Positions 2,476-42,409 of a stretch of DNA of 56,598 nt are shown in pieces. The notes under the pieces are model-generated. The model saw only the letters and a list, made by a program, of their open reading frames with translations, did no database searches and was not told the origin of the DNA. Positions within the stretch are counted from its first letter, which is position 1, and each line of letters starts with the position of its first letter. A program made the position numbers and the translations under genes. Source of the DNA: Bacteroidota bacterium (GTDB lineage Bacteria; Bacteroidota; Bacteroidia; JABEUT01); contig JABDGY010000007.1 in assembly GCA_013285805.1 (NCBI GenBank), positions 1-56,598 on the forward strand, read 5' to 3'.

Positions 2476-2519
2476 CAAAATTATATGCGACATATGCTTT
2501 AAACAATGACCTTAGTCAC
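2476..2519 (-). promoter_or_regulatory. hmgA promoter with Crp/Fnr-type palindrome, 36.5-bp spacing
   Basis: Palindrome ATGAC-CTTA-GTCAC at 2506-2519. On the minus strand the -7 element TAATTTTG (2476-2483) matches the Bacteroidota TAnnTTTG consensus at all six fixed bases. The palindrome centre is 36.5 bp upstream of the final G of TTTG, the same value as at five other promoters here. The hmgA start codon is 48 bp beyond that G. The palindrome would cover the -33 region, as at class II Crp/Fnr sites. Confidence 0.75.
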
Positions 2520-2576
2520 AGTTTAAAAATGAAGTTTCTAAGGAAAACATATAATATAAAGGAGATAGGAACATTA

Positions 2577-3284
2577 TTAGTCGGAAACATTTGCCGAATG
2601 CAAAAGTTGTTGCTGGCTTACTATTTTAATCTTCTTTCCATTTAACTCAATGCTTTTCTCTTTACTTAGCTCTGTAAGCAAACGCGTAGCTGTTTCACGA
2701 GCTGTACCAACTATGCTTGCTAATTCTTCACGCGTTATTGATATATCAATGGTACATCCATCGTCTTCGTATCCGTAACTTTCTTTCAGTAGCAATATAC
2801 TCTGGGCCAATCGTTCTTTAACGGATTTCTGAGCCAGGTCCGTAATTGTTTGTTCCGCTGTTTTAAGCTCTTCAGAAAAAAGGTGTATCACTTTAAACGC
2901 CAGACGCGCATTTTTCTCCACCAAATCAAGAAATGCCTTTGCAGGTATGAAGCAAAGTGTAGAGGTTTCTAGTGCAGTAGCAGATGCAGAGTACCTGTCG
3001 CCACTAAGGATAGCCCTGTATCCCATAATATCACCATTTTTAGCCAGGTGTATAATCTGGTCTTTGCCATCGGGGCCGGTTTTGGTAACCTTTATTTTAC
3101 CATTATTCACACAATACAGGCCATGCGGGTATGTATCTTCCTCAAAAATAATCTGACCCTTTTTGTAAGTAACACAGCTCTTATGCAAATCCATTTCACG
3201 GGTCTCATCAAGATTCATATCGCTGAAAATTGATTTTAACCTTACACTACAATGGTAACATTCTATTTTGGTTGTTGCAGGCAT
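2577..3284 (-). CDS. Crp/Fnr family transcriptional regulator, FNR-like
   Basis: A 235-residue DNA-binding regulator: cyclic-nucleotide-binding-like beta-barrel (about residues 25-130), long dimer helix (130-160) and winged HTH (165-225). It aligns well with E. coli FNR. ATALETSTLCFIP places Cys111 at the position of FNR Cys122, and Cys9-x2-Cys12 matches Cys20-x2-Cys23. The fourth FNR cluster ligand (Cys29) is Ser18 here, so an iron-sulfur cluster would need a non-Cys ligand. The recognition helix reads TARETATRLL: Arg196, Glu197 and Arg201 match the CRP contacts Arg180, Glu181 and Arg185, while Thr200 takes the place of FNR Ser212. This suits TGA-type half-sites. It is the first candidate for the palindromes around it. 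Its role and signal are inferred. Confidence 0.9.
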   Translation of the reverse strand: MPATTKIECYHCSVRLKSIFSDMNLDETREMDLHKSCVTYKKGQIIFEEDTYPHGLYCVNNGKIKVTKTGPDGKDQIIHLAKNGDIMGYRAILSGDRYSASATALETSTLCFIPAKAFLDLVEKNARLAFKVIHLFSEELKTAEQTITDLAQKSVKERLAQSILLLKESYGYEDDGCTIDISITREELASIVGTARETATRLLTELSKEKSIELNGKKIKIVSQQQLLHSANVSD

Positions 3285-3300
3285 GGGAAGATTTATTTAT

Positions 3301-3308
3301 CAAATTTA
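3301..3308 (-). promoter_or_regulatory. putative -7 element of the crp/fnr gene
   Basis: TAAATTTG on the minus strand is a full TAnnTTTG match, 17 bp upstream of the regulator's start codon. The nearest palindrome (3356-3369) is 61.5 bp away, not 36.5 or 58.5, so I do not count this gene as part of the palindrome regulon. Confidence 0.45.
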
Positions 3309-3354
3309 GTATTACTTATCCGTTATAATTCAATTGCAGCGCTATTTTTAAGAG

Positions 3355-3399
3355 TGTGAGAAAAGTCACATGTTTTAAACCGGGCATGCTTTTTATTTG
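3355..3399 (+). promoter_or_regulatory. promoter of the 37-aa peptide gene with a perfect CRP-consensus palindrome
   Basis: TGTGA-N6-TCACA at 3355-3370 is the textbook E. coli CRP consensus; the 14-bp core used for comparison is GTGAG-AAAA-GTCAC (3356-3369). The -7 element TTTATTTG (3392-3399) matches five of six fixed bases. Centre to final G is 36.5 bp, identical to the hmgA and coxB promoters. The peptide start codon follows 24 bp after that G. Confidence 0.7.
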
Positions 3400-3422
3400 C
3401 AGTAACTTATATTCAATTAATC

Positions 3423-3536
3423 ATGAGCGAAGTTCACGAAGGTCAGAATCTTAACTATTACATAATGATGTACGTAGTTATTTTCAGTTGTATCGGAGTT
3501 GTTGCTGCAGTTGCAGAAGCCTTTTTTATAAAATAA
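3423..3536 (+). CDS. 37-residue single-pass membrane peptide
   Basis: ATG to TAA encodes 37 residues beginning MSEVHEGQNLNYY, followed by a hydrophobic stretch (about 14-35) and ending in FFIK. It is probably one membrane helix with a polar N-terminus. I do not recognise a family. What supports it as a gene is its own promoter, which has a consensus palindrome and -7 element at the regulon's standard spacing, and its place between the FNR-like regulator and the oxidase operon. Small helices of this kind often accompany terminal oxidases, so an accessory role for the cytochrome oxidase is possible, but this is inference. Confidence 0.6.
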   Translation: MSEVHEGQNLNYYIMMYVVIFSCIGVVAAVAEAFFIK

Positions 3537-3547
3537 CTCTAACACAT

Positions 3548-3652
3548 TTATTTTTTCTTCAATAGACTTGCAGGTATCGGCCTACAGCCACAGTTCTTTG
3601 CGTGCTCCAAATGCCATTTCAATCTTTGTTCCTTAGTAGGATTCTTTGGCAT
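3548..3652 (-). CDS. 34-residue Cys/His microprotein
   Basis: ATG to TAA encodes MPKNPTKEQRLKWHLEHAKN followed by a CGC motif and a basic tail. His14, His17, Cys21 and Cys23 form an H-x2-H-x3-C-x-C cluster that could bind a metal. It starts 10 bp after the stop of the 76-residue CPMC protein on the same strand, as the last gene of the cytochrome oxidase operon, and ends 11 bp from the convergent 37-residue peptide gene. I do not recognise the family. A role in copper or heme handling for the oxidase would suit the context but is not shown. Confidence 0.5.
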   Translation of the reverse strand: MPKNPTKEQRLKWHLEHAKNCGCRPIPASLLKKK

Positions 3653-3662
3653 TTTGTGCTTT

Positions 3663-3893
3663 TCATGCCATTCCTTGTTCATCTTCTTTCTTATTCTTTT
3701 TAACTTTTGAATAGAACCAATAAGAAATTCCGCCCCCGCCTAATATTGGTATCAAGGCGAGTATGGCCGTTGTTTCTTCATAGGCGGTCTGTGTCTTTTT
3801 TGTGGCGCCTGCCTGGCACATCGGACATGCCTTGACAAATGCCGGTAGCACAAACAATGCAATCAAAGCAGTATATACTCTTACACTTCTCAT
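3663..3893 (-). CDS. small membrane protein with a CPMC motif
   Basis: A 76-residue protein with an N-terminal hydrophobic signal or helix (5-20), then ACPMCQAG just after it, a second hydrophobic segment (about 42-60) and a charged KKNKKEDE tail. The Cys-Pro-Met-Cys motif directly after the signal region would face the periplasm and is a plausible copper or thiol-exchange site. It begins 2 bp after the stop of ctaB and is co-transcribed with the oxidase genes. The function is unknown; copper delivery or assembly of the oxidase is a guess from the motif and position. Confidence 0.75.
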   Translation of the reverse strand: MRSVRVYTALIALFVLPAFVKACPMCQAGATKKTQTAYEETTAILALIPILGGGGISYWFYSKVKKNKKEDEQGMA

Positions 3894-3895
3894 AA

Positions 3896-4792
3896 TTAAC
3901 TGAATTTAGCAATTACCAATACTATCAACACAAAAGGTAGATACACAAAAGAGCCAAACATTAATCCTAAAGCCGATTTGCTTGTTCTGCTTTTATATAA
4001 TTTATACGCAAATATTACCATACCCACGCCAGCTAAACCAAGTAACCAGCCAACCGATACACCTGCTGAATAGTACATATTGAAAACCAAGCCCGCAGGA
4101 ATAATTAAGAATGTAGATAGCAATATAATTATGGCGGATGCTTTATTACGGCCTCCTGAAGTCGGCATCATTTTTATGCCTGCTTTGTTATATTCTTCAT
4201 CAAGCAACCATGCAATTGACCATGTGTGCGGGAATTGCCAGATGAATTGAACCGTGAATAATAACCATGCTTCATTAGATAATCTACCAGTTGCCGCCAC
4301 ACAACCAATTACTACAGGCAATGAACCGGCAATGGCACCGGGTATAATAGTAAGGCGTGTAATTTTCTTTAGTGGAGTGTATATGCCGGCATAAATAATT
4401 ATTGCAATTAAACCGAGTATAGCACAAAGGCTGTTTACCTGGTAAAGGAGAAATAATCCCACCACGCCTAGAACAGCAGCCACTAAAAGTGCTTCGCCAA
4501 CCTGCATCCTTCCCGAAGGAAGGGGTCTATTAAGTGTGCGTTTCATCAATTTATCAGAATCTCTTTCAATAACCTGGTTCAGTGTATTGGCCGCACCGGT
4601 TATCATAAAACCGCCAATAGAGATGAGCCAAATAATTGATGGTTCTATATGCCTGTTACTTGCCCACAGGTAAGCCATAGCAGCTGAAAATACCACCAGT
4701 GACGAGAGCCTTATTTTTATAAGTTGGGTATAATCAGCAAGTTTTGACTGCAACGCTTTTACGGGCGAATTGATTGCGGTTATTGTTTCCAT
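3896..4792 (-). CDS. ctaB: protoheme IX farnesyltransferase (heme o synthase)
   Basis: Adds a farnesyl chain to heme b to make heme o for the terminal oxidase; it is an integral inner-membrane prenyltransferase of the UbiA superfamily. The 298 residues contain about eight to nine hydrophobic segments and the first polar loop motif NQVIERDSDKLMKRT (from about residue 73) with its conserved Asp residues, plus the second loop DEEYNKAGIKMMP. It lies 1 bp after the stop of the second subunit III gene. No heme a synthase (CtaA) is present in this window, so the final heme type (o or a) cannot be told from the sequence. Confidence 0.93.
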   Translation of the reverse strand: METITAINSPVKALQSKLADYTQLIKIRLSSLVVFSAAMAYLWASNRHIEPSIIWLISIGGFMITGAANTLNQVIERDSDKLMKRTLNRPLPSGRMQVGEALLVAAVLGVVGLFLLYQVNSLCAILGLIAIIIYAGIYTPLKKITRLTIIPGAIAGSLPVVIGCVAATGRLSNEAWLLFTVQFIWQFPHTWSIAWLLDEEYNKAGIKMMPTSGGRNKASAIIILLSTFLIIPAGLVFNMYYSAGVSVGWLLGLAGVGMVIFAYKLYKSRTSKSALGLMFGSFVYLPFVLIVLVIAKFS

Positions 4793-4793
4793 A

Positions 4794-5387
4794 TTAGTTT
4801 AAATAAACAAGTATGTAAAGAATTGGCCATATAGCCACCACAAAATACCAGTACATGCTGCAAGCTATAATCCTGCTCTTTAAAACTCCGAAAGGCAAAG
4901 GCTTACGAAAGGATGAAAAGAGGTAAAGCAATATTGTGAGCCCTACTAATACATGCGCCCCATGCAACCCTATAAGCGTGTAGAAAAAAGCGCCATAGAG
5001 GCTGGAATGCGTGGTGAGCCCATAGCCGACCAGTTTTACCCATTCCGTTCCCTGAACAGCAAGGAACGTTGCTCCCAACAAAAGGGCTGCCGTTAACAAT
5101 CCTTTCGACCTGATTTTAATATAGGCCGCACTCTTCACCCGCCTCCCAAACATATACAAGGCGAAAGCGCTGGATAAAAGTACTAACGTATTCACAGCAG
5201 TTACCTCTATGGGTAAGCGTGGCTGCCCTGCAGGTGGCCAAACCATAACCCCGGCACGGTTAACTATATATGCGCTTATAAGGCCTGCGAAAAACATGGC
5301 CTCAGTGGCAAGCACAAACACCATACCAATTATACCATCGCTGGTTATTTTCTTTTCTTGTATAGGCGCGGTCATTACAGCTTCCAT
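4794..5387 (-). CDS. cytochrome c oxidase subunit III, second copy
   Basis: A 197-residue membrane protein with about five helices. It carries the subunit III signature in GLHGAHVLVGL (about residues 139-149) and the C-terminal MYWYFVVAIWPILYI. It is a paralogue of the protein encoded at 5763-6371, from which it is separated by the subunit IV gene. In the other copy the terminal motif reads MYWHMVDLIWIF, so the His/Asp pair is lost here. It is part of the coxBACDC'-ctaB operon. Confidence 0.88.
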   Translation of the reverse strand: MEAVMTAPIQEKKITSDGIIGMVFVLATEAMFFAGLISAYIVNRAGVMVWPPAGQPRLPIEVTAVNTLVLLSSAFALYMFGRRVKSAAYIKIRSKGLLTAALLLGATFLAVQGTEWVKLVGYGLTTHSSLYGAFFYTLIGLHGAHVLVGLTILLYLFSSFRKPLPFGVLKSRIIACSMYWYFVVAIWPILYILVYLN

Positions 5388-5399
5388 TTTTAAGTTGAA

Positions 5400-5744
5400 T
5401 TAATGAGGTTTTGTTACATCAAGCGGAACAGCAGTGATGTCCGGATATACACCAAAGAAAAACGCGAATAATATCAGCAATACTGAAGCTATTACTATAA
5501 ATACCAGCAACGGTTCATACTTCAGGTGCATAAAATTGCGCATCACTAAAGCCGTTTTCCATATGGCTGTACCAAATATGAGTATAATTGCCAAACCAGG
5601 TGATACCAGGTAGCCCACAAGCAAACTTACAGACAATAATGCTAGCAAGGTTAATAATATTCTTGTATAATGCGGGTGTCCATGATAGTCATGTTCTGCA
5701 TCTGGGAAAATGGCGTTGTCGTTGTTATGTGTGACAGTTTCCAT
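5400..5744 (-). CDS. cytochrome c oxidase subunit IV (CyoD/COX4-type)
   Basis: A 114-residue protein with a polar His/Asp-rich N-terminus (NIFPDAEHDYHGH-like region) and three hydrophobic helices (about 29-47, 50-66 and 77-98). The segment WKTALVMRNFMHLKYE in the middle is typical of bacterial prokaryotic subunit IV. It probably stabilises the subunit I-III assembly in the inner membrane. It sits between the two subunit III genes. Confidence 0.85.
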   Translation of the reverse strand: METVTHNNDNAIFPDAEHDYHGHPHYTRILLTLLALLSVSLLVGYLVSPGLAIILIFGTAIWKTALVMRNFMHLKYEPLLVFIVIASVLLILFAFFFGVYPDITAVPLDVTKPH

Positions 5745-5762
5745 AGTGTTTAATTTTAAAGG

Positions 5763-6371
5763 TTATTTAGCTATATAAAGAAGAGGAAATAAGAATATCC
5801 AGATAAGGTCGACCATATGCCAATACATACCTGCTAATTCAACGCGGTGAAGGTTTTTACCTTTTCGTACCTGCATCATAATAATGAACATTACAATTAT
5901 TCCGACAAGTACGTGTGTTCCGTGAAGGCCAGTCATTATATAATAGAAAGACCAGAATAATGAATTCACATGGTCTCCCGCTTGTTGCAGATGTGGGCTG
6001 GTAAATGTGAAACCTTCACTGATTTCATGGTAATATTCTATTGATTTATCGACCAGAAATATTAAACCACCTGCAATTGTGCATGTCATCCATGTCAGTA
6101 CTTTCGGAATGTCCCTATGTTGTGCGGCTTCGTGTGCCCTGACTATAGTGTAGCTACTGCAAAGCAGAACCACCGTATTAATAGCGCCTATTAGTGTAGA
6201 TGTATGTGCAGCCATTTCACTCCACTGCGGGTAACGAAGACGATACTGCAAGTAGGTGGCAATTAACCCCCCGAATATTACTAATTCACCTGCAATAAGG
6301 ACCCACATGCCAAGGCGGCCTTCGGGAACCTTATTTATGGGTAGCGAAAGATGTTGCTGTTTTGTGCTCAT
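5763..6371 (-). CDS. cytochrome c oxidase subunit III
   Basis: A 202-residue membrane protein of the COX3 family with five to six helices. The signature GLHGTHVLVGI is followed by HRVELAGMYWHMVDLIWIF at the C-terminus, both standard for subunit III. The reading frame begins 41 bp inside the end of coxA. No other in-frame start would leave the first helix intact (the next Met is inside it), so the overlap appears real and may couple translation of the two subunits. Confidence 0.92.
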   Translation of the reverse strand: MSTKQQHLSLPINKVPEGRLGMWVLIAGELVIFGGLIATYLQYRLRYPQWSEMAAHTSTLIGAINTVVLLCSSYTIVRAHEAAQHRDIPKVLTWMTCTIAGGLIFLVDKSIEYYHEISEGFTFTSPHLQQAGDHVNSLFWSFYYIMTGLHGTHVLVGIIVMFIIMMQVRKGKNLHRVELAGMYWHMVDLIWIFLFPLLYIAK

Positions 6372-8094: not shown

Positions 8095-8115
8095 ATCTGA
8101 TTCTTGTTTTAAGTG

Positions 8116-8814: not shown

Positions 8815-8834
8815 AGGTTTATTTTTTATGAATG

Positions 8835-8878
8835 CAAAATAACTGCGGTTGAATGGTGAGTAGCATGATTAAAGTCAC
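8835..8878 (-). promoter_or_regulatory. oxidase operon promoter with Crp/Fnr-type palindrome, 36.5-bp spacing
   Basis: Palindrome ATGAT-TAAA-GTCAC at 8865-8878. The minus-strand -7 element TTATTTTG (8835-8842) matches five of six fixed bases of TAnnTTTG. Centre to final G is 36.5 bp. The coxB start codon is 21 bp beyond that G. This site and the next lie in the 296-bp gap between coxB and the divergent USP gene, and each faces its own gene. Confidence 0.7.
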
Positions 8879-9004
8879 ATTCTTATATGATTATTTACAC
8901 CCGGCGTGGGATGCATAGAATAGCGCTGCTTTCCCAATTCATCTTGTATCTTAACAGCTAAAACCACTTTGTGTTTTCAGCATTTACGGGGCAAGAGAAG
9001 TTAT

Positions 9005-9070
9005 ATGATGTGAATCATGTCAATTTATGCGGCATATCATATAAGATAGCCTTATATGCTTGTTTCTTTG
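9005..9070 (+). promoter_or_regulatory. USP-HPF-RNase operon promoter with palindrome, 58.5-bp spacing
   Basis: The palindrome ATGAT-GTGA-ATCAT (9005-9018) is perfect in both arms. The -7 element TTTCTTTG (9063-9070) matches five of six fixed bases. Centre to final G is 58.5 bp, the second of the two recurring spacings. The start codon follows 41 bp after that G. Confidence 0.72.
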
Positions 9071-9110
9071 CTTCAGAATCTTAATCAATAATATTTTAAA
9101 ACCTTAAGTC

Positions 9111-10025: not shown

Positions 10026-10067
10026 TCGAATAAATTAAACAGGTTAACATTAAAAAAACAAAACATT

Positions 10068-10412: not shown

Positions 10413-10426
10413 GCACAATTGCTCAA

Positions 10427-11854
10427 ATGGATTACAAGGTATCGATTCAATTTTTAGGCGCTGCCGGAACGGTAACGGGGTCGAAGCATCTGCTAAAAAC
10501 CCCTGAGAAGAATATTCTTATAGATTGCGGGCTCTTCCAGGGGATAAAAGCTCTTCGGAGACGTAACTGGGATGCCCTGCCATTTCCGGCTGATAAGATA
10601 GACCTTATTATTATTACCCATGCGCACCTAGATCATACCGGATATTTGCCTCTTATTGTAAAAGCCGGCTATAAGGGTAAAATACTTATGACTCACCCTA
10701 CAAAAGATTTAACTGAGGTTATTCTTCGCGATAGCGCTAAAATACAGGAAGAAGACGCAGAAAAAGCAAACAAGCATGGTTATACAAAACACAAACCTGC
10801 CCTTCCGCTTTATACATTGGCTGAAGCTGAGAAGTGTTTCAGCCAATTTGTATCATACAATGATGATGAATGGGTAAAAGTTTCTGATGATATATGCTTT
10901 CGGTTCATAAAGAATGGCCATATACTTGGTTCGGCCTTTGTAGAAATACAGTGTTTCGGAAAAAGAATTATCTTTTCAGGTGATATTGGCCGGCAGCAGT
11001 CGGAGATATTAGATGCACCTTCTGTAATTAAAGAAACTGATTTCCTTATTATGGAAAGCACCTATGGAGACAGGCTCCACCCTGCAGTTCCTTCAAGTCT
11101 TCAACTTGCCGATATAATTAATTCCACCATTCGTAAAAAGGGAAATATAATTATACCCAGTTTTGCGGTAGGCCGTGCACAGGAATTAATGCACATTATA
11201 ACCCGGCTGAAGAAAGAAAAAAGCATTCCTGACATACCTGTTTACATGGACAGCCCAATGGGCGCCGATGTGTTGGCTATTATGGATAAATACCCGCAAT
11301 GGCATAAACTCCCGGAAAGAGAGTATGTAGCTATGTGTAAGGATATAACAACAATACGCGATTATCATGAAACCGAAAAGGTAATACAGAAAAAAGGAAG
11401 TAAGTTAATTATAGCGGCTAGCGGAATGCTTACCGGCGGACGGGTATTGGAATACATAAAGAACTACATTGGCCAAAAGAAAAATACTGTTTTACTGGTG
11501 GGTTACCAGGCCGAAGGAACACGCGGAAGGGCGCTAAAAGAAGGTACGCATGAAATAAAGATACATGGGAAGTATTACCAGGTAAGTGCGAGAGTAGCAG
11601 TTATAGGTTCTCTTTCAGGCCACGCCGATCAGGGAGAAATGATAGGCTGGCTTGGTAATTTTGAAAAGAAGCCGGCAAAAATATTCCTTGTACACGGAGA
11701 GCCTATGTCGCAAGAAGCTTTCAGAGTTAAGATAGAACATGAATTCAATATTCCTGTGGAAATTCCTTCACAGGAGCAGGAATTGGATATGTTCTCCCTT
11801 GAAGATGTGAAGAAGCCTTCTTCGTCGGTTGAAACATCAACTACTAAACAGTAA
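10427..11854 (+). CDS. metallo-beta-lactamase/beta-CASP RNA exonuclease
   Basis: A 475-residue RNA-processing nuclease of the YSH1/CPSF73-like bacterial group. The zinc motif HAHLDH at residues 65-70 is followed by GHILGSAFVEI and SGDIGRQQSEIL in the MBL core. The beta-CASP insertion starts at SFAVGRAQEL, and SGMLTGGRVLEYI plus SLSGHADQGEMIGWL carry the remaining metal and motif residues. It probably degrades or trims RNA under stress. Its 3' end overlaps the convergent acetyl-CoA hydrolase gene by 11 bp. Confidence 0.9.
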   Translation: MDYKVSIQFLGAAGTVTGSKHLLKTPEKNILIDCGLFQGIKALRRRNWDALPFPADKIDLIIITHAHLDHTGYLPLIVKAGYKGKILMTHPTKDLTEVILRDSAKIQEEDAEKANKHGYTKHKPALPLYTLAEAEKCFSQFVSYNDDEWVKVSDDICFRFIKNGHILGSAFVEIQCFGKRIIFSGDIGRQQSEILDAPSVIKETDFLIMESTYGDRLHPAVPSSLQLADIINSTIRKKGNIIIPSFAVGRAQELMHIITRLKKEKSIPDIPVYMDSPMGADVLAIMDKYPQWHKLPEREYVAMCKDITTIRDYHETEKVIQKKGSKLIIAASGMLTGGRVLEYIKNYIGQKKNTVLLVGYQAEGTRGRALKEGTHEIKIHGKYYQVSARVAVIGSLSGHADQGEMIGWLGNFEKKPAKIFLVHGEPMSQEAFRVKIEHEFNIPVEIPSQEQELDMFSLEDVKKPSSSVETSTTKQ

Positions 11855-13127: not shown

Positions 13128-13131
13128 GTTG

Positions 13132-13227
13132 CAAATTTTGCTAAAACCATTCCCCGTATGTATGATACAAATCACCTTCAATACTGAGTGATATCATCCA
13201 TAATCCTTGCCTGTTACTGTTCTTTTG
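13132..13227. promoter_or_regulatory. shared divergent promoter region: one palindrome, two promoters (36.5 and 58.5 bp)
   Basis: Palindrome ATGAT-ACAA-ATCAC at 13162-13175. Minus strand: -7 element AAAATTTG (13132-13139) for the acetyl-CoA hydrolase, centre to final G 36.5 bp. Plus strand: -7 element TTCTTTTG (13220-13227) for tolC, centre to final G 58.5 bp. Both elements match five of six fixed bases. The plus promoter excludes the upstream in-frame tolC start and supports the ATG at 13249. Confidence 0.72.
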
Positions 13228-13248
13228 CATTGTCAAACGCGAAATAAA

Positions 13249-17918: not shown

Positions 17919-17984
17919 CTGATAAAAATCACCTAAATACTTGATTGTTCTCATTAGCAATAGTACATTCACACAATACTTTTG
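17919..17984 (+). promoter_or_regulatory. BON-domain operon promoter with palindrome, 58.5-bp spacing
   Basis: Palindrome CTGAT-AAAA-ATCAC at 17919-17932. The -7 element TACTTTTG (17977-17984) matches the consensus fully. Centre to final G is 58.5 bp. The start codon follows 19 bp after that G. The site begins only 11 bp after the stop of the exporter permease, so this is a separate unit and not read-through alone. Confidence 0.74.
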
Positions 17985-22383: not shown

Positions 22384-22767
22384 CTATTTAATACTTTCTG
22401 CAGTAGGCCTGCTCATCTCTTCCCCGGCACGGTTTTCTTCTTCCAGCGTCCAGTTAACGGTTGATGATGTTTCAATCCAATTACTACCCGATTTGCGAAA
22501 GACCTGAACTGCAAGACCAAAGGTGTCACTAAAGCCCTGTTCAAGATCCGTTATCCTCATTTTAGGTAAAATGGTCAAAGTACCGTTTGAGTTTACTGTT
22601 CTGCACTCACCAATTGTTTTGCTGGAGCTTCTCATAAATTTCTTAGGCGATGCCCCTCCAGACTTAGATGGTTTGACATAAAACTCAAGTTTAAGGTAAG
22701 GGAACATCTCTGAAAATGCCTCCTGAATTGCGAATATTTTTCTCTTGTCATTAATTGTAATTTTCAT
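22384..22767 (-). CDS. hypothetical protein
   Basis: A 127-residue soluble protein, beginning MKITINDKRKIFAIQEAFSE and rich in Lys, Ser and Thr, with a Ser/Lys-rich stretch (KPSKSGGASPKKFMRSSS) followed by a predicted alpha/beta part containing LPKMRITDLEQGFSDTFGLAV. I do not recognise the family. It has no signal peptide or membrane segment. Its place between two USP genes suggests a role in the same stress response. Confidence 0.72.
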   Translation of the reverse strand: MKITINDKRKIFAIQEAFSEMFPYLKLEFYVKPSKSGGASPKKFMRSSSKTIGECRTVNSNGTLTILPKMRITDLEQGFSDTFGLAVQVFRKSGSNWIETSSTVNWTLEEENRAGEEMSRPTAESIK

Positions 22768-24075: not shown

Positions 24076-24141
24076 CAAAACTACTTCTGCTGCCATCCGG
24101 GCAATATGAAGACCATCATATTTCAGTATGATATATATCAT
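24076..24141 (-). promoter_or_regulatory. doxX-usp operon promoter with palindrome, 58.5-bp spacing
   Basis: The palindrome ATGAT-ATAT-ATCAT (24128-24141) is perfect. The minus-strand -7 element TAGTTTTG (24076-24083) is a full consensus match. Centre to final G is 58.5 bp. Confidence 0.78.
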
Positions 24142-24252: not shown

Positions 24253-24318
24253 ATGATTTCAATCATACCTATGAATGACAACACACATTTTATTTACACT
24301 AGAGTAATCGGTACTTTG
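24253..24318 (+). promoter_or_regulatory. usp-kinase-regulator operon promoter with palindrome, 58.5-bp spacing
   Basis: The palindrome ATGAT-TTCA-ATCAT (24253-24266) is perfect. The -7 element GTACTTTG (24311-24318) keeps the TTTG but not the TA (four of six fixed bases). Centre to final G is 58.5 bp. This and the preceding site share the 280-bp divergent gap, one for each direction. Confidence 0.68.
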
Positions 24319-24338: not shown

Positions 24339-25097
24339 ATGTTAAACAATCAACATATTAAAGATAAACAGTTAAAACTCTTAGTACCCACAGATTTCTC
24401 CGGTACAGGAGTGAATGCGGCGGCTTATGCCATTCAACTATTCCACAAAAAAACAGGCGAGTTAATACTTGAAAACGTATTCCAGGCCCCTAAGGAAAAA
24501 GCCGGCACACTAATATCAATAACTGATATATTGCTAAGCGAATCTAAAACCTTGTTAGAAAAGGAACGTAAACATCTTGCTGCAGAGTTTAGAAATGTAA
24601 ATATCTCCATTGAGTCGGAGGAAGGTAGCATTATTAATACAATTAAGAATGCCATTAAAGCAAAAAACATTAACCTGCTTGTGTTAGGTATACCTAAACG
24701 TGCCGCATATTTAACGAGCGTTCCTAAGACATTTATTGAATTGCCTTATTACTGGCCCATGCTTATGGTTCCACAAAGCGCTTTGAAAAATAAATCAAAA
24801 GAACTGGTTATTATAATTTCTGAGGATTCACGTCATAGAAATACACTGGAACTTGAAACCTACCTTAAAGACATTAATCTGAAGGACAATAAAATGCATC
24901 ATATTGAATTTACAACAAATAATAGTGTCGTTCAATTAATGAAGCAACTGGACGAGTTGTTGAAAAAACACAAAATAGGGTTACTGGTGTTTAATACTTT
25001 TAAAGGCGACAAACTTCAGAAAGCAATAACAAACCATGAGCTTGACTCCTTATTACTTACTCTTCCGGCCCTTATAATGCAGAATAATGAAGCATGA
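24339..25097 (+). CDS. degenerate tandem universal stress protein
   Basis: A 252-residue protein that resembles two UspA domains. The N-terminus LKLLVPTDFSGTGVNAAAYA and the strand LLVLGIPKRAAYL fit the fold, but the nucleotide-binding glycines and final G-S are missing, so it probably does not bind ATP. It overlaps the histidine kinase gene by 11 bp, which suggests that they are translated together and that it may act on the kinase. That link is inference from position. Confidence 0.78.
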   Translation: MLNNQHIKDKQLKLLVPTDFSGTGVNAAAYAIQLFHKKTGELILENVFQAPKEKAGTLISITDILLSESKTLLEKERKHLAAEFRNVNISIESEEGSIINTIKNAIKAKNINLLVLGIPKRAAYLTSVPKTFIELPYYWPMLMVPQSALKNKSKELVIIISEDSRHRNTLELETYLKDINLKDNKMHHIEFTTNNSVVQLMKQLDELLKKHKIGLLVFNTFKGDKLQKAITNHELDSLLLTLPALIMQNNEA

Positions 25098-26733
25098 AAG
25101 AATTAATCTAAACAGAGAATCAACTATTTCTACTAAAACCTTATCTTCGCCATATAAAACCTCAAATAGCGAAAGTATGCCTACCACGAAAATGGGCGAA
25201 GATATAAACCAGGTTTACAAGTTATTATTTGAAACCGCAGCAGAAAGTCTCCTTATTGTAAATAAAGAAGGTGTTATTCAATTGGTTAATCACCGCACCA
25301 ACGATATGTTCGGATATGAGGGCAAAGAGCTCATAGGGCAGAAAATGGAAATACTTTTGCCCGAGAAGTACCGTGAAAAACATGTCCATAACCGTGAAGA
25401 TTATTCAAAGAACCCCAGGCGAAGGTCAATGGGAATGGGAATGGAGCTTTGGGCGAGACGTAAAGACGGTACCGATTTCCCTGTAGAGGTGAGCCTTAAC
25501 CATTTTGAGGCAGACGGCAACCTTTTTGTTATGGGCCTTATTACTGATATAACAGAAAGGCGAAAAGCAGAAGAGAAAATAAAGATACTTAACGAAGAAC
25601 TTGAACAACGGGTTGAAGACCGTACACGTGAACTGGAAGAAAGTCAGCGCTTATATAAAACCGTTGCCCGTAATTTCCCCGATGGAACCATTAACGTTTT
25701 TGACAAGGACCTTAATTATGTTTTTGTTGAGGGAATGGAGTTGTTTAAATACGGGGTAACCAGTGAAAAACTCGTGGGAACAAGTTACGTAGCGCGCCTT
25801 CCTGAAGAAATAAAGCCCTTTATTACTGGAAAACTTACTGATGTATTTGAAACTAAAGCTAATACTTCATTTGAGGTAAGTTTCAGGGATAGGAGCTATA
25901 TTATGAATGTAGTGGCCCTGCATGATAACGATGGCAATGTGGACCAGATATTACTGGTTGAGAGGGATGCGACACAACAAAAACAAAACGAAGAAGAAAT
26001 AAGGAAAACACTGCAAAAAGAGATACAGCTTAATGAATTAAAATCGCGATTTGTTTCAATGGCGTCGCATGAATTCAGAACCCCTTTGGGGGCTATACTT
26101 TCCTCCACATCATTAATTGAAGAATATCTTACAAAAAAAGATGCTACTATTGACTTTGTTAGGGAAAAGACAGATAAACATATTAAACGTATAAAGTCTT
26201 CCATTGGTAACCTTATAAGTATATTGAATGATTTCTTATCTCTTGAAAAACTTGAACAGGGGAAAGTTGAGATTAAGGATTCTATATTTAATATGCCCGA
26301 TTTCACTAAAGAATTGATAGAGGAAATACAACCCACATTGAAGAAAGGCCAGAAAATAATTTATATTGAAAAAGGGGATATTAAGGAAGTGTTCCTTGAT
26401 CAGAATACGTTAAGGAATATTATGCTCAACCTTATTTCAAATGCCATTAAATATTCCCCGGAAAATTCCGCTATTGAGGTTTTAACCGTCAGCAATAAAG
26501 AAGGCCTTGAAATACTAGTAACTGACCATGGAATGGGAATTCCTGAAGATGACCAGCAACATTTATTCGAGCGCTTCTTCAGGGCAAAAAATGCAACCAA
26601 TGTTCAGGGTACCGGGCTTGGCCTTAATATTGTGAAGAGATATATTGACCTGATGGGAGGCGAAATATCTTTCACTACAAAAGAAAACCAAGGAACAACC
26701 TTTACTGTATATTTGAAGACTCATACCCATTAA
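25087..26733 (+). CDS. PAS-PAS sensor histidine kinase
   Basis: A 548-residue soluble kinase without membrane segments: PAS 1 (about 40-158), coiled coil (160-190), PAS 2 (190-300), HisKA with phospho-acceptor His328 in SMASHEFRTPLGA and HATPase_c with NLISNAIKYSPEN, DHGMGIP and GTGLGL. PAS 1 has the segment PEKYREKH, where His99 aligns with the FixL heme ligand, but the FixL Arg that contacts O2 is Met119 here, so heme is uncertain. It lies 11 bp from the REC-Crp gene, its likely partner. It probably reads a cytoplasmic signal such as redox or gas. Confidence 0.93.
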   Translation: MKHERINLNRESTISTKTLSSPYKTSNSESMPTTKMGEDINQVYKLLFETAAESLLIVNKEGVIQLVNHRTNDMFGYEGKELIGQKMEILLPEKYREKHVHNREDYSKNPRRRSMGMGMELWARRKDGTDFPVEVSLNHFEADGNLFVMGLITDITERRKAEEKIKILNEELEQRVEDRTRELEESQRLYKTVARNFPDGTINVFDKDLNYVFVEGMELFKYGVTSEKLVGTSYVARLPEEIKPFITGKLTDVFETKANTSFEVSFRDRSYIMNVVALHDNDGNVDQILLVERDATQQKQNEEEIRKTLQKEIQLNELKSRFVSMASHEFRTPLGAILSSTSLIEEYLTKKDATIDFVREKTDKHIKRIKSSIGNLISILNDFLSLEKLEQGKVEIKDSIFNMPDFTKELIEEIQPTLKKGQKIIYIEKGDIKEVFLDQNTLRNIMLNLISNAIKYSPENSAIEVLTVSNKEGLEILVTDHGMGIPEDDQQHLFERFFRAKNATNVQGTGLGLNIVKRYIDLMGGEISFTTKENQGTTFTVYLKTHTH

Positions 26734-26744: not shown

Positions 26745-27797
26745 ATGAAAAAAATCCTGCTTATTGAAGACAATCCTGACATGCGCGACAACACGGCAGA
26801 AATACTTGATTTAGCCAATTATGTTGTTGTAACTGCTGAAAATGGTAAAGTAGGCGTTGAAGTTGCCAAACAGGAAAAGCCCGATTTAATTATTTGTGAT
26901 ATTATGATGCCCGACCTTGATGGTTATGGTGTATTGCATATCCTCAGCAATGACCCAAAGACTGCCGGTATCCCGTTTATCTTTTTGACGGCTAAAGCGG
27001 AAAAGAGCGATATGCGCAAAGGCATGAACCTAGGTGCTGATGACTACCTGGTTAAACCATTTGATAAAATGGAGTTACTTAACGCCATTGAAACCCGGTT
27101 GAAAAGGAGTGAGTTTTTCAAGAAAAACTACACCCGGGATTTAAGTGGATTAGTGGATTTTATTCAAACAGCCAATAAATTCAGCCTGCCGACAAGTGTT
27201 TCAACAAACCATAAGCTTCGTAATTTTCCGATAAAGGGTTTTGTTTATCATGAGGGTGATGAACCTATTTCAGTTTTCTTTGTTAACAAGGGAAAAATAA
27301 AATCGTGGCGTATGAGTCCCGATGGTAAAGAATTGATTACAGGAATATATGGCGCCGGCGAATTTTTTGGGTATAACTCGATATTGGAAGGCACAAACTA
27401 TGCAGATTCAGCTACAGCATTAGAAGATGCGGAAGTTGCCCTCATACCAAGGAACGAATTTCTATCATTGGTATATTCTACACAGGAAGTATCAGCCAGG
27501 TTTATTAAAATGCTGGTGAATAATATTAATGAAAAAGAAGAGCAGTTACTTAGCCTTGCATATAATTCAGTAAGAGGCAGGGTAGCTGATGCGTTACTGA
27601 AACTGGTTAAGAAGACACCGAATAGTCAAAACTTAAGTTTATCGCGGGAAGACCTTGCCAATATGGTTGGGACATCTACTGAATCACTTATTCGCACCCT
27701 TTCAGATTTCAAACAGGAAAAAATGGTAGAGATAGACGGAAGAGATGTTAAAGTGGTTAATGCACAAGGCCTGGAGAGAATCAGGAAATTCTCGTAA
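26745..27797 (+). CDS. response regulator fused to a Crp/Fnr DNA-binding module
   Basis: 350 residues in three parts: receiver domain (1-120) with phospho-acceptor Asp52, Thr82 and Lys104; cyclic-nucleotide-binding-like barrel (about 150-260); and Crp-type winged HTH (275-345). The HTH reads REDLANMVGT then STESLIRTLS; Glu313 and Arg317 correspond to the conserved Glu/Arg of CRP and FNR, while Ile316 replaces FNR Ser212 and Thr312 replaces CRP Arg180. The nucleotide-pocket Arg/Ser pattern of CRP is not evident, so control is probably by phosphorylation. It is the second candidate to bind the island's palindromes. A hairpin terminator follows. Confidence 0.92.
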   Translation: MKKILLIEDNPDMRDNTAEILDLANYVVVTAENGKVGVEVAKQEKPDLIICDIMMPDLDGYGVLHILSNDPKTAGIPFIFLTAKAEKSDMRKGMNLGADDYLVKPFDKMELLNAIETRLKRSEFFKKNYTRDLSGLVDFIQTANKFSLPTSVSTNHKLRNFPIKGFVYHEGDEPISVFFVNKGKIKSWRMSPDGKELITGIYGAGEFFGYNSILEGTNYADSATALEDAEVALIPRNEFLSLVYSTQEVSARFIKMLVNNINEKEEQLLSLAYNSVRGRVADALLKLVKKTPNSQNLSLSREDLANMVGTSTESLIRTLSDFKQEKMVEIDGRDVKVVNAQGLERIRKFS

Positions 27798-30298: not shown

Positions 30299-30394
30299 CA
30301 AAGCTATTCTCACCCCATACCAGGCAATATGATATAAGTCATATATATGTTTGAGAGTAGTCATTGAATTAACACCCACTACGCACAATCTTTG
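30299..30394. promoter_or_regulatory. shared divergent promoter region ppsA / alcohol dehydrogenase
   Basis: Palindrome ATGAT-ATAA-GTCAT at 30329-30342. Minus strand: -7 element TAGCTTTG (30299-30306), full match, 36.5 bp from the centre, for ppsA. Plus strand: -7 element AATCTTTG (30387-30394), five of six, 58.5 bp from the centre, for the dehydrogenase. Another TATGTTTG at 30346-30353 is only 17.5 bp away and would be blocked by a bound protein. Confidence 0.75.
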
Positions 30395-32166: not shown

Positions 32167-32190
32167 TAAAAACCTCATAAACTTTCAACC

Positions 32191-33024: not shown

Positions 33025-33069
33025 ACAATAAGAATTTACTAACCAATCCAATAATCAAAAACTGATATT

Positions 33070-33522: not shown

Positions 33523-33574
33523 TTTTTTACGCTTACATTTTGTCTCATCTTCTTCAATCAGAGGGTGAGGCAAT

Positions 33575-34420: not shown

Positions 34421-34474
34421 ATTCCGGAAGTTTTAGCTTTCTACTTTAATAATAGCCCCTTATAAGTACAACAA

Positions 34475-35132: not shown

Positions 35133-35166
35133 ATTATTCCGGATATTATAAACCAGTTTATAATGG

Positions 35167-35262
35167 CAATATTAGGATAATGCTTTGCCAGGGGTAATGA
35201 CGCAAATCATGTGGAATACTGATTGAATTCATGAGAATAAATTCATTTATGCTAGAATTTAG
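35167..35262. promoter_or_regulatory. shared divergent promoter region holin-like operon / mlaE
   Basis: Palindrome ATGAC-GCAA-ATCAT at 35197-35210. Minus strand: -7 element TAATATTG (35167-35174), five of six, 36.5 bp from the centre. Plus strand: the 58.5-bp position falls on a G at 35262, but the element (GAATTTAG) matches only four of six fixed bases, so the mlaE promoter is the least certain of the set. Confidence 0.6.
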
Positions 35263-35270
35263 CCCTTGAA

Positions 35271-36820: not shown

Positions 36821-36824
36821 TATC

Positions 36825-37829: not shown

Positions 37830-37835
37830 AATACT

Positions 37836-38792: not shown

Positions 38793-38795
38793 GCC

Positions 38796-40529
38796 ATGTA
38801 TGCGGCAAATAAAGAGTTATCTGAGATATTTCATGCCATAGCGGCCATTTACCGCTATAAAGGCGATGACCGTTTCCGTGCCCTTGCCTACGACAAGGCC
38901 TCACGCGCTATAGCTTCTCTCCATGAAGATATTGAATCATTTGCCAAACACGACAGGTTAAGCGATATCCCTGGAATTGGCATACATACAGAGGAAAAGA
39001 TAAAAGAATATTTCCGCACCGGGAAAATTGCAAAATATGAAGAACTAAAAAAAGAAGTACCCGTTGGTATTCTTGACATGACTGAGATATCGGGTTTTGG
39101 CCCCCAGTCGGTAAAAAAACTGCACGATGAATTAAAAGTAGAAACAAAAGAAGAATTGGTAAAAGCATTACAAAGTGGTGAAGTAGCAAAACTGAAAGGT
39201 TTTGGCAAAAAAAAGGTTGAGGGTATGTTACGCGGATTAAAACTCCATAAGACAATAGAAGAAAGAATGCTTCTATGGGATGCACTTCAGGGTGCTGGCC
39301 AGGTTCTTGAAAAATTAAAGAAACTACCGGAAGTAAAAAGAGCTGAAATAGCTGGTAGCCTGCGCAGGATGAAGGAAACCATTGGCGATATAGACATACT
39401 TGTATCATGCGAAGCTAAAAACAGGAAGAAGGTTATTACTTATTTCACAGGGCCGGCGTTAGCAAAACAGGTTCTTGCAAAAGGCGACACAAAAGTCAGT
39501 ATTATACACAAAGAATCAGGCAGGCAAATTGATTTACGGATGGTGAATGAAAATGAATGGGGCTCGGCGCTGCAATATTTCACGGGTTCAAAAGAACATA
39601 ATGTTCACATCCGAACCATTGCAAAAGACAAAGGGTATAAAATAAGCGAATATGGTATTTTCACAATTAAGAGCAATAAATGGGTAGCAGGAAAAGAAGA
39701 GGAAGATATTTACAATGCACTCGGATTTAAAATAATGCCTGCAGAAATGCGTAAAGACAAAGGTGAAATAGAGTTAGCGGCCAAAGGCAAAATTCCAAAC
39801 CTTGTTACATTAAAAGATATCCGCGGCGATTTGCATACCCACTCTACCTGGAGTGACGGGGCTCGTTCAATAGATGAAATTGCCAGATACATTATGAAAA
39901 ATCTTCCGTACGACTACTTTGCAATTTCTGACCATTCAAAAGCGACCAGGATTGCCAATGGCATGGATGAAAAACAAATATTGAAACAATTAAAAGAGAT
40001 AGATAAACTGAACAAGCAATATGGGAAATATTTCATAAAAAAGAGCATTGAAGTTGATATTTTGGCTGATGGTTCCCTCGATATGCCCGACGAAATTTTA
40101 GCCCGGCTCGATTGGGTAACAGCTTCCATACATAGTGGCTTCAAGGGCGACAACACCGACAGGCTTATCGCCGCCTGCCACAGTAAATATGTTTCTTCTA
40201 TAGGACATCCAACCGGAAGATTAATAGGTTCAAGGGAACCTTATAAAGTGGATATTGAAGAATTAATAAAAGTAGCAAAAAACACAGGTACCGCACTTGA
40301 GATAAATAGCCAGCCCCAACGAATGGACCTGAATGATGAAATGGCACGCTTAGCCCGGGAAAATGGGGTTAAACTGGTTATTGATACCGACAGCCACGAT
40401 TTAAATCACTTCAACTATATGAAACTAGGAGTTGCAATTGCCCGCAGGGCCTGGTGTACACCCGACGATATACTGAATACAAAATCGTGGAGCGAGATGA
40501 AGAAATTTGCATCTAAAAAACTTAAATAG
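38796..40529 (+). CDS. polX: DNA polymerase/3'-5' exonuclease PolX
   Basis: A 577-residue family X polymerase with a helix-hairpin-helix/DNA-binding start (about 50-140), the nucleotidyltransferase core with AGSLRRM and Asp198/Asp200 in GDIDIL, and a C-terminal PHP domain (from about 345) beginning DLHTHSTWSDG with the metal-binding HxH. It fills short gaps in base-excision repair. Its position in an Mla operon is unusual but the same promoter would tie DNA repair to the stress response. It ends 18 bp from the convergent second mlaD. Confidence 0.94.
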   Translation: MYAANKELSEIFHAIAAIYRYKGDDRFRALAYDKASRAIASLHEDIESFAKHDRLSDIPGIGIHTEEKIKEYFRTGKIAKYEELKKEVPVGILDMTEISGFGPQSVKKLHDELKVETKEELVKALQSGEVAKLKGFGKKKVEGMLRGLKLHKTIEERMLLWDALQGAGQVLEKLKKLPEVKRAEIAGSLRRMKETIGDIDILVSCEAKNRKKVITYFTGPALAKQVLAKGDTKVSIIHKESGRQIDLRMVNENEWGSALQYFTGSKEHNVHIRTIAKDKGYKISEYGIFTIKSNKWVAGKEEEDIYNALGFKIMPAEMRKDKGEIELAAKGKIPNLVTLKDIRGDLHTHSTWSDGARSIDEIARYIMKNLPYDYFAISDHSKATRIANGMDEKQILKQLKEIDKLNKQYGKYFIKKSIEVDILADGSLDMPDEILARLDWVTASIHSGFKGDNTDRLIAACHSKYVSSIGHPTGRLIGSREPYKVDIEELIKVAKNTGTALEINSQPQRMDLNDEMARLARENGVKLVIDTDSHDLNHFNYMKLGVAIARRAWCTPDDILNTKSWSEMKKFASKKLK

Positions 40530-40547
40530 CTAAAATAATAAGGTATC

Positions 40548-41501
40548 CTAATTACCCGGATGCTTTTTAAAATATCCTCTCAGCAAAAAGCTATGCTGAA
40601 GCGCATCCATAGTTTTATTGAGTTTTTTAGTGCTTTGCTGTAAATTATCAATACTTTGTTTAAGGTTTCCTGCAAATGCCGTATCTTTCATTAAAACACT
40701 CCAGGTATTACTATTATTAGCTTGTAAACCTTTCAGCAGTTCACCTGTGATTTGGGTTGAATATGCACTGCTGGTTTTTAAATTAGCCATAGTTTCCTGT
40801 AATTCATGCTTCATAATTGTATCATTCATTAAAATACCGATAACCCCGCTATCAGGGTTTATCTTATCAACCATCTTATCTATATCTGATGATATTGTAA
40901 TCAGTTGACTACTAGTGGTGCTGATATTCCTCAAAGTATTCCTGAATTCCTTATCCGAAGTACTATCATTGACCAATGTTTTAAAGATGCTTTTCTTCTC
41001 AGTCATATCAGTGCTTATCTTAGCCAGGTTGGCGGTAATTATTGATACATTCTGGTTTGTATTTATAAGCTTTTCAATAATGCCTTGGCTATCAAATGGA
41101 TTAACCGAGGCCAGGATACCATTATCCTCAATGCTTTCCCTCGACTTCCATACAGGCTTAATATTTACTTCCTTATTTCCCACAAGGCCTTCTGTAGCAA
41201 TATAAACCACAGCATCTTTTTTAATAAGAGGCTGAAAGCTCTTATCAAGTTTCATATCTACTTTTATCATCGAATCGTTGAGAAAGGTTATTTTTTCTAC
41301 AATGCCTGCTTTAACCCCTGAGAAATTGACATTGTCGCCGGTTCTAAGTCCGCTAAGGTTATTATAAATAGCGCTGACTCTGAACGTACGGGAAAAGAGA
41401 TTTTGTTTAGAGCCAACAAAGAAAATACCAACAACAAAAATGGCAGTACCTGTAGCAACCAATATCCCAAGCATTAATTTTCTTTTCGATTGCTTATCCA
41501 T
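40548..41501 (-). CDS. second MlaD-type MCE-domain protein
   Basis: A 317-residue protein with N-terminal anchor helix (about 9-28), an MCE domain (about 38-118, with YNNLSGLRTGDNVNFSGV) and a long helical tail ending ALQHSFLLRGYFKKHPGN. It is a paralogue of the protein encoded at 36825-37829, with the same C-terminal motif. It follows the second MlaE gene by 6 bp. Confidence 0.9.
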   Translation of the reverse strand: MDKQSKRKLMLGILVATGTAIFVVGIFFVGSKQNLFSRTFRVSAIYNNLSGLRTGDNVNFSGVKAGIVEKITFLNDSMIKVDMKLDKSFQPLIKKDAVVYIATEGLVGNKEVNIKPVWKSRESIEDNGILASVNPFDSQGIIEKLINTNQNVSIITANLAKISTDMTEKKSIFKTLVNDSTSDKEFRNTLRNISTTSSQLITISSDIDKMVDKINPDSGVIGILMNDTIMKHELQETMANLKTSSAYSTQITGELLKGLQANNSNTWSVLMKDTAFAGNLKQSIDNLQQSTKKLNKTMDALQHSFLLRGYFKKHPGN

Positions 41502-41507
41502 GGTTTA

Positions 41508-42308
41508 TCATAATAAATTGAAAATATTCGATATTTGAGTTACAACCATATCTGTAATTATTACAAGCATTAGCGAGTTAATAACCGATGCATTTGTTGC
41601 TTTTCCTACACCCGCAGTGCCGTTTTCCGATGTATACCCTTTATAACATCCAACAATTCCAATAATAAAGCCAAATATGAACGATTTAATTATGGAAGGA
41701 GCAATATCATTAAATGAAAGTTTCTCTACTACCTGCCCGAAAAACAACCTAAGGCTTATCTGACCCTTTACATTCGCACCAATAAAGGAACCTATAAGTG
41801 AAATAGCATCAGCATGTATTACAAGAATGGGTATAATAAGCGTACTTGAAATTACCCTTGTAACAACAAGGTATTTAAAAGGGTTTATCCCCGATACTTC
41901 CATAGCATCAATCTGGTCCGATATTTTCATTGAACCCAGTTCAGCTGTAATATTCGAGCCTATGTTGCCGGCGCATACAAGTGCCGTAATAAGCGGGCCA
42001 ATTTCACGTATAATAGATACTGCTGCCATGGATGGTATGTAGGAGCCTGCACCGAATTCAACAAGCGCCGGCCTGGATTGAAGCACGAGGACTATACCCA
42101 TTCCTAACGCGGTTATGCTGACAGGGAAAATAGATTTAAAGCCCACCTCATACGCCTGCCTTATAATTTCATTGAATTCAAATGGGGGAAGAAATGCTTC
42201 TTTAATGACGCGCAGAACAAACTGAACAGTATCACCAAGCCCCATAGCCCTTCTATAAAGGCCCTTAACTTTGCTATTCTGAACTGATGTTTCTTCTGTT
42301 TGCTCCAT
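41508..42308 (-). CDS. second MlaE-type lipid transport permease
   Basis: A 266-residue permease with SIIREIGPLITALVCAGNIG and AELGSMKISDQIDAMEVSG, close to the first MlaE. The frame is open 18 codons upstream, but a full-consensus -7 element occupies 42344-42351, so an ATG further upstream could not be on that transcript; I use the ATG beginning MEQTEETSVQ. Only a permease and an MCE protein are encoded in this operon; the ATPase is missing. Confidence 0.9.
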   Translation of the reverse strand: MEQTEETSVQNSKVKGLYRRAMGLGDTVQFVLRVIKEAFLPPFEFNEIIRQAYEVGFKSIFPVSITALGMGIVLVLQSRPALVEFGAGSYIPSMAAVSIIREIGPLITALVCAGNIGSNITAELGSMKISDQIDAMEVSGINPFKYLVVTRVISSTLIIPILVIHADAISLIGSFIGANVKGQISLRLFFGQVVEKLSFNDIAPSIIKSFIFGFIIGIVGCYKGYTSENGTAGVGKATNASVINSLMLVIITDMVVTQISNIFNLL

Positions 42309-42343
42309 TGTAATATTCCGCAGGACTAATTGATAATCCTTAA

Positions 42344-42409
42344 CAAACATATTTCCATACAATAACTATATGGATGAGTAGTGTCAGTTTTCAAGCTGAT
42401 TTACCTCAT
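42344..42409 (-). promoter_or_regulatory. second mlaE promoter with degenerate palindrome, 58.5-bp spacing
   Basis: Palindrome CTGAT-TTAC-CTCAT at 42396-42409, one mismatch per arm to ATGAT/ATCAT but with the TGA-N6-TCA core intact. The minus-strand -7 element TATGTTTG (42344-42351) is a full match. Centre to final G is 58.5 bp. This is the last palindrome I find in the window. Confidence 0.65.

Follow-up and report, generated by a model that had tools for sequence, protein, structure and literature searches.

Which regulator governs the many promoters that share a Crp/Fnr-type palindrome in this stretch of DNA from a Bacteroidota bacterium, and how are these promoters built? The window, by which we mean the whole 56,598 bp analysed (38.8% GC, from an assembly of 2.05 Mb in 110 contigs that is 60% complete), had been described from its letters alone as a regulon in which one palindrome, TGA-N6-TCA, stands at two exact distances from the -7 box TAnnTTTG. 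We find instead a composite element of two palindromes, 22 bp apart, at a fixed distance from that box. This promoter architecture is real, exact to the base and widespread; it varies the known class II type of Crp/Fnr promoter, with a driver protein that is apparently interchangeable. For this genome we consider it probable that the element is a two-site activator element, its tandem bound mainly by a receiver-Crp fusion protein (P0002), while the FNR-like protein P0001 occupies sites with TGTGA half-sites.

All 11 palindromes of the sequence-only reading are present (each position it gave is that of the base preceding the TGA), and each of the 14 promoters it named has a palindrome at 36.5 bp, at 58.5 bp or at both (distance between the centre of the palindrome and the last G of TAnnTTTG). 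Against the 15 transcription units that it counted, the range holds about 16 by eye; that no other distance occurs is contradicted by the fnr gene, whose own TAnnTTTG sits 61.5 bp from site 3357. To take the two spacings for two promoter types was a misreading. Six exact partner palindromes had gone unlisted (13185, 17942, 24107, 30352, 35220 and 42375), each 22 bp from a listed one, giving the exact pairs 13163/13185, 17920/17942, 24107/24129, 30330/30352, 35198/35220 and 42375/42397. As 58.5 minus 36.5 gives 22, a single pair accounts for both distances. With one mismatch allowed, both positions are filled in 12 of the 14 promoters, 22 bp apart: both palindromes are exact in nine, one is exact and one has a single mismatch in three (coxB, usp-HPF and usp-kinase), and the promoters of hmgA and of a 37-amino-acid (37-aa) peptide have the 36.5 site only. 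As the pair looks alike from both sides, divergent genes can use one pair, and three divergent gene pairs read one tandem in opposite directions. The promoters are as follows:

2476–2518, minus strand: hmgA promoter, single TGTGA-type site 2507–2518 at 36.5, -7 box TAATTTTG at 2476–2483.
3357–3399, plus strand: promoter of the 37-aa peptide, single TGTGAN6TCACA site 3357–3368 at 36.5, -7 box TTTATTTG at 3392–3399.
8835–8899, minus strand: coxB operon promoter, proximal site 8866–8877 (36.5), distal site 8888–8899 (58.5, one mismatch), -7 box TTATTTTG.
9006–9070, plus strand: usp-HPF operon promoter, distal site 9006–9017, proximal site 9028–9039 (one mismatch), -7 box TTTCTTTG.
13132–13227, both strands: divergent promoters of acetyl-CoA hydrolase (minus) and tolC (plus), common pair 13163–13174 and 13185–13196.
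17920–17984, plus strand: BON promoter, pair 17920–17931 and 17942–17953, -7 box TACTTTTG.
24076–24140, minus strand: doxX-usp operon promoter, pair 24107–24118 and 24129–24140, -7 box TAGTTTTG.
24254–24318, plus strand: usp-kinase-REC-CRP operon promoter, distal site 24254–24265, proximal site 24276–24287 (one mismatch), weak -7 box GTACTTTG.
30299–30394, both strands: divergent promoters of ppsA (minus) and alcohol dehydrogenase (plus), common pair 30330–30341 and 30352–30363.
35167–35262, both strands: divergent promoters of the holin-like operon (minus) and mlaE (plus), common pair 35198–35209 and 35220–35231.
42344–42408, minus strand: mlaE2 promoter, pair 42375–42386 and 42397–42408, -7 box TATGTTTG.

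Their -7 boxes are exact in five promoters and differ by one mismatch in seven and by two in two, namely mlaE and usp-kinase, which had already been called weak. Inexact boxes were looked up at 36.5 or 58.5 bp and are the weaker evidence because their distance was imposed in this way; usp-HPF has a second one-mismatch box at 50.5 bp. The open reading frame (ORF) of the 37-aa peptide is present and starts at 3423. In the whole genome 14 palindrome pairs have 0–30 bases between them, 11 of them at exactly 22 bp (six in the window), and the reversed-pattern control gives four. Elsewhere in this genome (G000:C34:571-635 and 1603-1667; L183) a composite promoter precedes each of two successive genes for similar-looking secreted proteins.

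The same arrangement recurs far beyond this genome. In 197 Bacteroidia genomes we counted 663 exact tandems, that is palindrome pairs at 22 bp, against 17 for the reversed pattern. When tandem and TAnnTTTG were searched together in the genomes of this class, with the box allowed across 31 distance values, the 150 places read among the matches listed had a distance of 36.5 in 115 cases, 35.5 in 13, 37.5 in 8 and another value in 14. We also compiled fusion loci, the best 80 of at least 578 that encode relatives of P0002 (L083–L162, 1.38 Mb), selected solely for such a relative. There the palindrome-to-G distances show two maxima, 36.5 (43 cases) and 58.5 (50 cases), and no other value occurs more than seven times. 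These peaks had been predicted for a genome scan, and their recurrence strongly supports the earlier proposal of a Crp/Fnr-type regulon with rigid promoter spacing. The consensus reads distal CTGATAAAnATCAT, 8 bp, proximal TTGATnnnnGTCAT, 22 bp, TAnnTTTG. Across 149 genomes of other classes (of 198 scanned) there were 72 tandems, 0.48 per genome and at most three, with 12 for the control; because Bacteroidia carry 3.4 each, the element is mainly a feature of this class.

With TAnnTTTG as the anchor and no palindrome demanded but the distal one (50 cases, 24 with an exact proximal site), the base frequencies at the proximal position are T 0.90, G 0.80, A 0.90 ... T 0.94, C 0.86, A 0.84, T 0.76, and the 26 cases lacking an exact proximal site keep the signal (T 0.81, G 0.62, A 0.81 ... 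T 0.88, C 0.73, A 0.69, T 0.73). When the proximal palindrome alone was demanded, the 19 cases without an exact distal site retained mainly the distal right half. Since conservation of the proximal site does not depend on its being part of the search, the two sites form one composite element.

Class II activation by E. coli CRP and FNR takes place from position -41.5. For Flavobacterium psychrophilum, the sigma-A box TAnnTTTG has been mapped to positions -12 to -5 (PMC9723704). With the last G at -5 as in that species, the distances of 36.5 and 58.5 bp would place the proximal centre at -41.5 and the distal centre at -63.5, so that the proximal palindrome would fall on the class II position, given a box placement taken from another species. 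Two Crp/Fnr-type dimers would then sit side by side, 22 bp or about two helical turns from centre to centre, the proximal one able to touch RNA polymerase and the distal one probably stabilising it by direct dimer-dimer contact. Such contact is probable because only 22 bp, and less often 23 bp, is enriched: the 80 fusion loci contain 114 palindrome pairs up to 60 bp apart, 63 of them at 22, 10 at 23 and at most four at any other spacing, and the control core yields three. The distal dimer might otherwise serve a contact with the C-terminal domain of the RNA polymerase alpha subunit or bend the DNA, the 22 bp then reflecting helical phase. Class I contacts are known for Crp and the distance in turns agrees with this idea, but longer spacings in phase are not enriched (one pair at 32–33 bp and five at 42–43 bp, against the 63 at 22 bp), and we regard it as unlikely, though deserving of weight. 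Triple arrays in steps of 22 bp occur as well (L087 at 7625, L119 at 11063, G323:C5:324937 and G034:C2:2518584).

As to the proteins that could bind here, the assembly encodes two with a Crp-type helix-turn-helix (HTH) above the Pfam cut-off, both within the window, and a third hit below it. These two and the adjoining kinase are:

2577–3284, minus strand: FNR-like Crp/Fnr regulator P0001, Pfam cNMP_binding and HTH_Crp_2, CxxC motif C9/C12, C37, C110, CRP-type recognition helix GTARETATR.
25087–26733, plus strand: PAS histidine kinase by Pfam, its first PAS domain closest to the FixL heme PAS among solved structures.
26745–27797, plus strand: receiver-Crp fusion REC-CRP (P0002), Pfam Response_reg, cNMP_binding and HTH_Crp_2, recognition helix GTSTESLIR.

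P0001 and P0002 both exceed the Pfam cut-offs for the cNMP-binding fold and the Crp-type HTH. The receiver of P0002 has the Asp (the residue phosphorylated in response regulators), Thr and Lys typical of such domains as D52, T82 and K104, invariant in 16 aligned sequences, while its Crp-type output sets it apart from FixJ, which is defined by a receiver with a LuxR-type HTH. Of the 72 relatives whose upstream flank reaches 2 kb or more, 69 have a kinase gene ahead of the fusion gene. The first PAS domain of the kinase matches FixL in PDB at 1e-16, with a His aligned to one of FixL that serves there as heme ligand, and with Met in place of a FixL Arg; this motif is not uniform among the kinases of the relatives. 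We infer that in this genome the FixL-like kinase would activate the adjoining fusion, which would most likely bind the tandems. Three of the 80 fusion loci (L097, L116 and L155) come from records labelled Alphaproteobacteria, Deltaproteobacteria and Bacteriovoracaceae, by transfer or in mis-binned contigs. P0001 has Crp/Fnr and FNR chains among its best PDB matches, and its best NCBIfam model is Fnr, with a score of 104.5 bits, below the cut-off of 228. Of the four Cys ligands of FNR, three N-terminal and one central, C9, C12 and C110 are present and the third N-terminal Cys is absent, with C37 as a possible substitute by alignment. Most FNR-like relatives have this third Cys, in the motif SIFC. 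The five proteins aligned from the window's genus all lack it, four having Ser and one Asp instead, and they keep C37; a changed cluster ligation or sensing in this genus is possible.

Tandems are more numerous in genomes that have the fusion. With E-value cut-offs for regulator presence that were picked after the tables had been viewed, the 100 genomes with a full-length fusion carry 549 tandems (at least one in 93) and the 97 without it carry 114 (at least one in 41; Mann-Whitney 6e-17). A permutation within the 22 families of mixed content gives p = 0.0002, the floor of 5000 permutations, with 16 families in favour. Of the 63 tandems in fusion loci, 43 are at most 3 kb from the fusion gene, with flanks unequal in length so that short distances are somewhat favoured. 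A linkage to FNR-like genes is seen as well. In 20 loci around FNR-like genes related to P0001 from fusion-less genomes (366 kb) there are 19 tandems, the distances again peak at 36.5 (11) and 58.5 (12), and 17 of the 20 loci have matrix hits. Two of these loci (L181 and L182) were picked with tandems in their genomes already known; the remaining 18, from the best-scoring fusion-less genomes in the list, hold 17 tandems in 326 kb, in 12 loci. Because the FNR-like genes of fusion-less genomes adjoin the same elements as the fusion genes, the element is common to two regulator types, and the idea that only the fusion uses the tandem is rejected. Where relatives lack the fusion, the same tandem appears to be used by FNR-like proteins, most of which differ from P0001 in their recognition helix.

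The recognition helices suggest how the two regulators of this genome could divide their sites. At the position of CRP R180, P0001 has R and the fusion has T; the FNR-like proteins of fusion-less genomes have T in 14 of 15 aligned cases, mostly as GTATETAIR. R180 has been linked to TGTGA and its loss to half-sites of the TTGA type (excerpt of PMC1274295). Among 17 exact sites, with the one-mismatch sites and palindrome 9011 (which overlaps 9006) left out, TGTGA makes up four of the six half-sites in the hmgA-fnr-cox segment (2507, 3357 and 8866) and none of the 28 in the other 14 sites (Fisher p = 0.0003). The single palindrome of the sequence-only reading thus probably needs splitting. Three members of the genus (L191, L194 and L195) have TGTGA sites around the fnr gene too. 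Because the recognition helices differ and the TGTGA halves cluster at hmgA-fnr-cox, we take hmgA, the 37-aa peptide and probably coxB as the most likely targets of P0001 and ascribe the tandem sites to the fusion; with its additional distal site, coxB may be a target of both.

It could still be argued that every site, whether single or in a tandem, is bound by P0001 alone and that the fusion acts elsewhere. The FNR-like genes of fusion-less genomes do sit among the same tandems, and genomes with an FNR-like match and no fusion average 1.96 tandems, against 0.375 in those with neither regulator. Yet the 62 genomes with the fusion and no FNR-like match under the E-value threshold average 3.9 tandems and 56 of them have at least one, all 63 tandems of the fusion loci lie in the 78 of 80 loci where no second Crp/Fnr gene was detected in the fetched flanks, and P0001 has a CRP-type helix with TGTGA halves concentrated at the hmgA-fnr-cox segment. 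We therefore hold this explanation to be improbable.

Several observations weigh against the fusion as the main binder of a fixed tandem promoter. Fusion-less genomes are the richer in tandems in four of the 22 mixed families, and the 48 genomes with neither regulator have 18 tandems, with five for the control. No exact tandem was found in seven of the 100 fusion-bearing genomes, including G142 of the window's own genus, nor any matrix hit around the fusion gene in three of the four genus loci fetched (L189, L190 and L192). Only 34 of the 80 fusion loci carry an exact tandem, and the 144 matrix hits inside them are in-sample, as the weight matrix was trained on these loci with the window excluded. 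Autoregulation of every fusion operon is unsupported: only 21 of 72 loci have the element in the 2.6 kb ahead of the fusion, where 13% of all strand windows of that length in these loci contain one. On the window itself, nine of the 14 -7 boxes are inexact, and the TGTGA grouping was made after the sites had been seen, with one TGTGA half in the omitted palindrome 9011. The genus member L196 (G113) has no TGTGA site in the fetched 12.9 kb despite its R-type helix. P0001 may bind tandem sites too, and an assembly of 60% completeness may lack further regulators.

That a single palindrome is used at two alternative distances, as a class II site at -41.5 or a class I site at -63.5 and without any tandem, would fit promoters with one exact palindrome, such as those of hmgA and the 37-aa peptide and the singles at 36.5 and 58.5 in the 80 loci. 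It is very improbable and largely refuted by the paired sites in 12 of 14 promoters and by the conservation of the 'missing' site where it was not required. That the palindromes arose by chance, or from low complexity of the AT-rich DNA between genes, could be argued from the short core and the 29 occurrences of TGAN6TCA in the window; this is refuted by the controls (17 against 663 tandems, 3 against 114 pairs) and by the 14 matrix hits above 14 bits on the window, where 40 first-order Markov sequences predict 0.05. Twelve of these hits lead to the expected genes and two are the same pairs read from the other side; hmgA scores 8.9.

Genes behind the composite element in the window code for universal stress proteins, a ribosome hibernation factor (Ribosomal_S30AE), a beta-CASP nuclease, PEP synthase, acetyl-CoA hydrolase/transferase, alcohol dehydrogenase, nitroreductase, TolC-type efflux, BON, DoxX, MlaE-type transport and cytochrome oxidase. 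Downstream of the matrix hits in relatives there are 141 ORFs; 63 match no window protein, and the 78 that match one include 21 for the kinase, 23 for universal stress proteins, 17 for oxidase subunit I and 5 for DoxX. Ten of the 141, chosen by us, were compared with NCBIfam. Above cut-off were a cbb3 subunit I/II fusion, HemN, HemA, an iron-sulfur repair protein, an ArsR-type regulator and a P-type ATPase, the latter closest to heavy-metal/copper models yet below the cut-offs of those; an Hsp18/20-type protein stayed below its cut-off, and three ORFs had no NCBIfam family, one being a universal stress protein by Pfam. In F. psychrophilum, cbb3 oxidase and heme synthesis are reported to be induced when oxygen is limiting (PMC9723704); the word Crp is absent from the main text of that paper. 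Because of this induction and of the targets in relatives, low oxygen is the likely signal, and the output of the regulon would be a low-oxygen/survival programme.

Compared with class II promoters of E. coli CRP and FNR, the proximal palindrome would likewise lie at -41.5, if the -7 box is placed as in F. psychrophilum (PMC9723704). The differences are the -7 box itself, which is the Bacteroidetes TAnnTTTG, and the further site that 12 of 14 promoters have exactly 22 bp upstream. Like the synergistic tandem CRP/FNR promoters of E. coli, the element has two sites of the same family upstream of one promoter, but its spacing is fixed at 22 bp. In those E. coli promoters the second site usually lies much further upstream. 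FixL-FixJ-FixK is the oxygen cascade of rhizobia, in which FixJ has a LuxR-type output. The present system shares with it a FixL-like PAS kinase, a Crp-type DNA-binding domain and, in relatives, microaerobic targets (cbb3 oxidase and hemN), and differs in uniting receiver and Crp output in one protein and in the tandem operator. With FNR of E. coli and Aliivibrio, P0001 and its relatives align in the N-terminal CxxC and the central Cys, while the third N-terminal Cys is missing and the helix is of the CRP type in the window's genus. NmpRSTU of Myxococcus xanthus is also a two-component system with an oxygen-utilisation regulon, but it acts through an NtrC-like, sigma-54 dependent regulator instead of a Crp fusion (excerpt of PMC11841059). 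The excerpted text of PMC9239204 contains nothing on a receiver-Crp fusion, and in searches of an open-access full-text library, where subscription papers are mostly absent, no listed paper describes the operator or the fusion as far as its title and the opening of its abstract show.

Tentatively, and with somewhat more doubt than belief, we extend the proposal to Bacteroidia as a whole: one composite promoter with neighbouring Crp/Fnr dimers at -41.5 and -63.5 would govern low-oxygen respiration. Its driver would have changed repeatedly in evolution, being either an Fe-S FNR or a phosphorylated receiver-Crp fusion in which FixJ and FixK are combined, and coexisting regulators would split their targets by a helix change of the R180 type. 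In our judgement, promoter activation in Bacteroidota is poorly understood. The base-exact activator architecture can be used for regulon prediction in many genomes and is tied to a widespread receiver-Crp regulator for which we found no described function; it bears on the spacing needs of two Crp-type dimers, on how an activator meets a polymerase at TAnnTTTG, and on low-oxygen sensing in these bacteria.

Some minor observations concern the neighbouring genes. From 42.4 to 56.6 kb the window has no matrix hit above 14 bits past the mlaE2 pair, so the regulon island ends at about 42.4 kb; a porin-like gene and, by eye, glycosyltransferase- and methyltransferase-like genes lie there. The beta-CASP nuclease of the usp-HPF operon (10427–11854, plus strand) has type VII CRISPR Cas14 as its best NCBIfam model, with 398 bits against a cut-off of 800, and an aCPSF1-like RNase model at 320 bits, also below its cut-off; since the Cas14 score is so far under the cut-off, the protein is more likely an aCPSF1-like RNase. 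Finally, a 127-aa protein (22384–22767, minus strand) without a Pfam match is the best window hit for 9 of the 141 ORFs that follow predicted promoters elsewhere.

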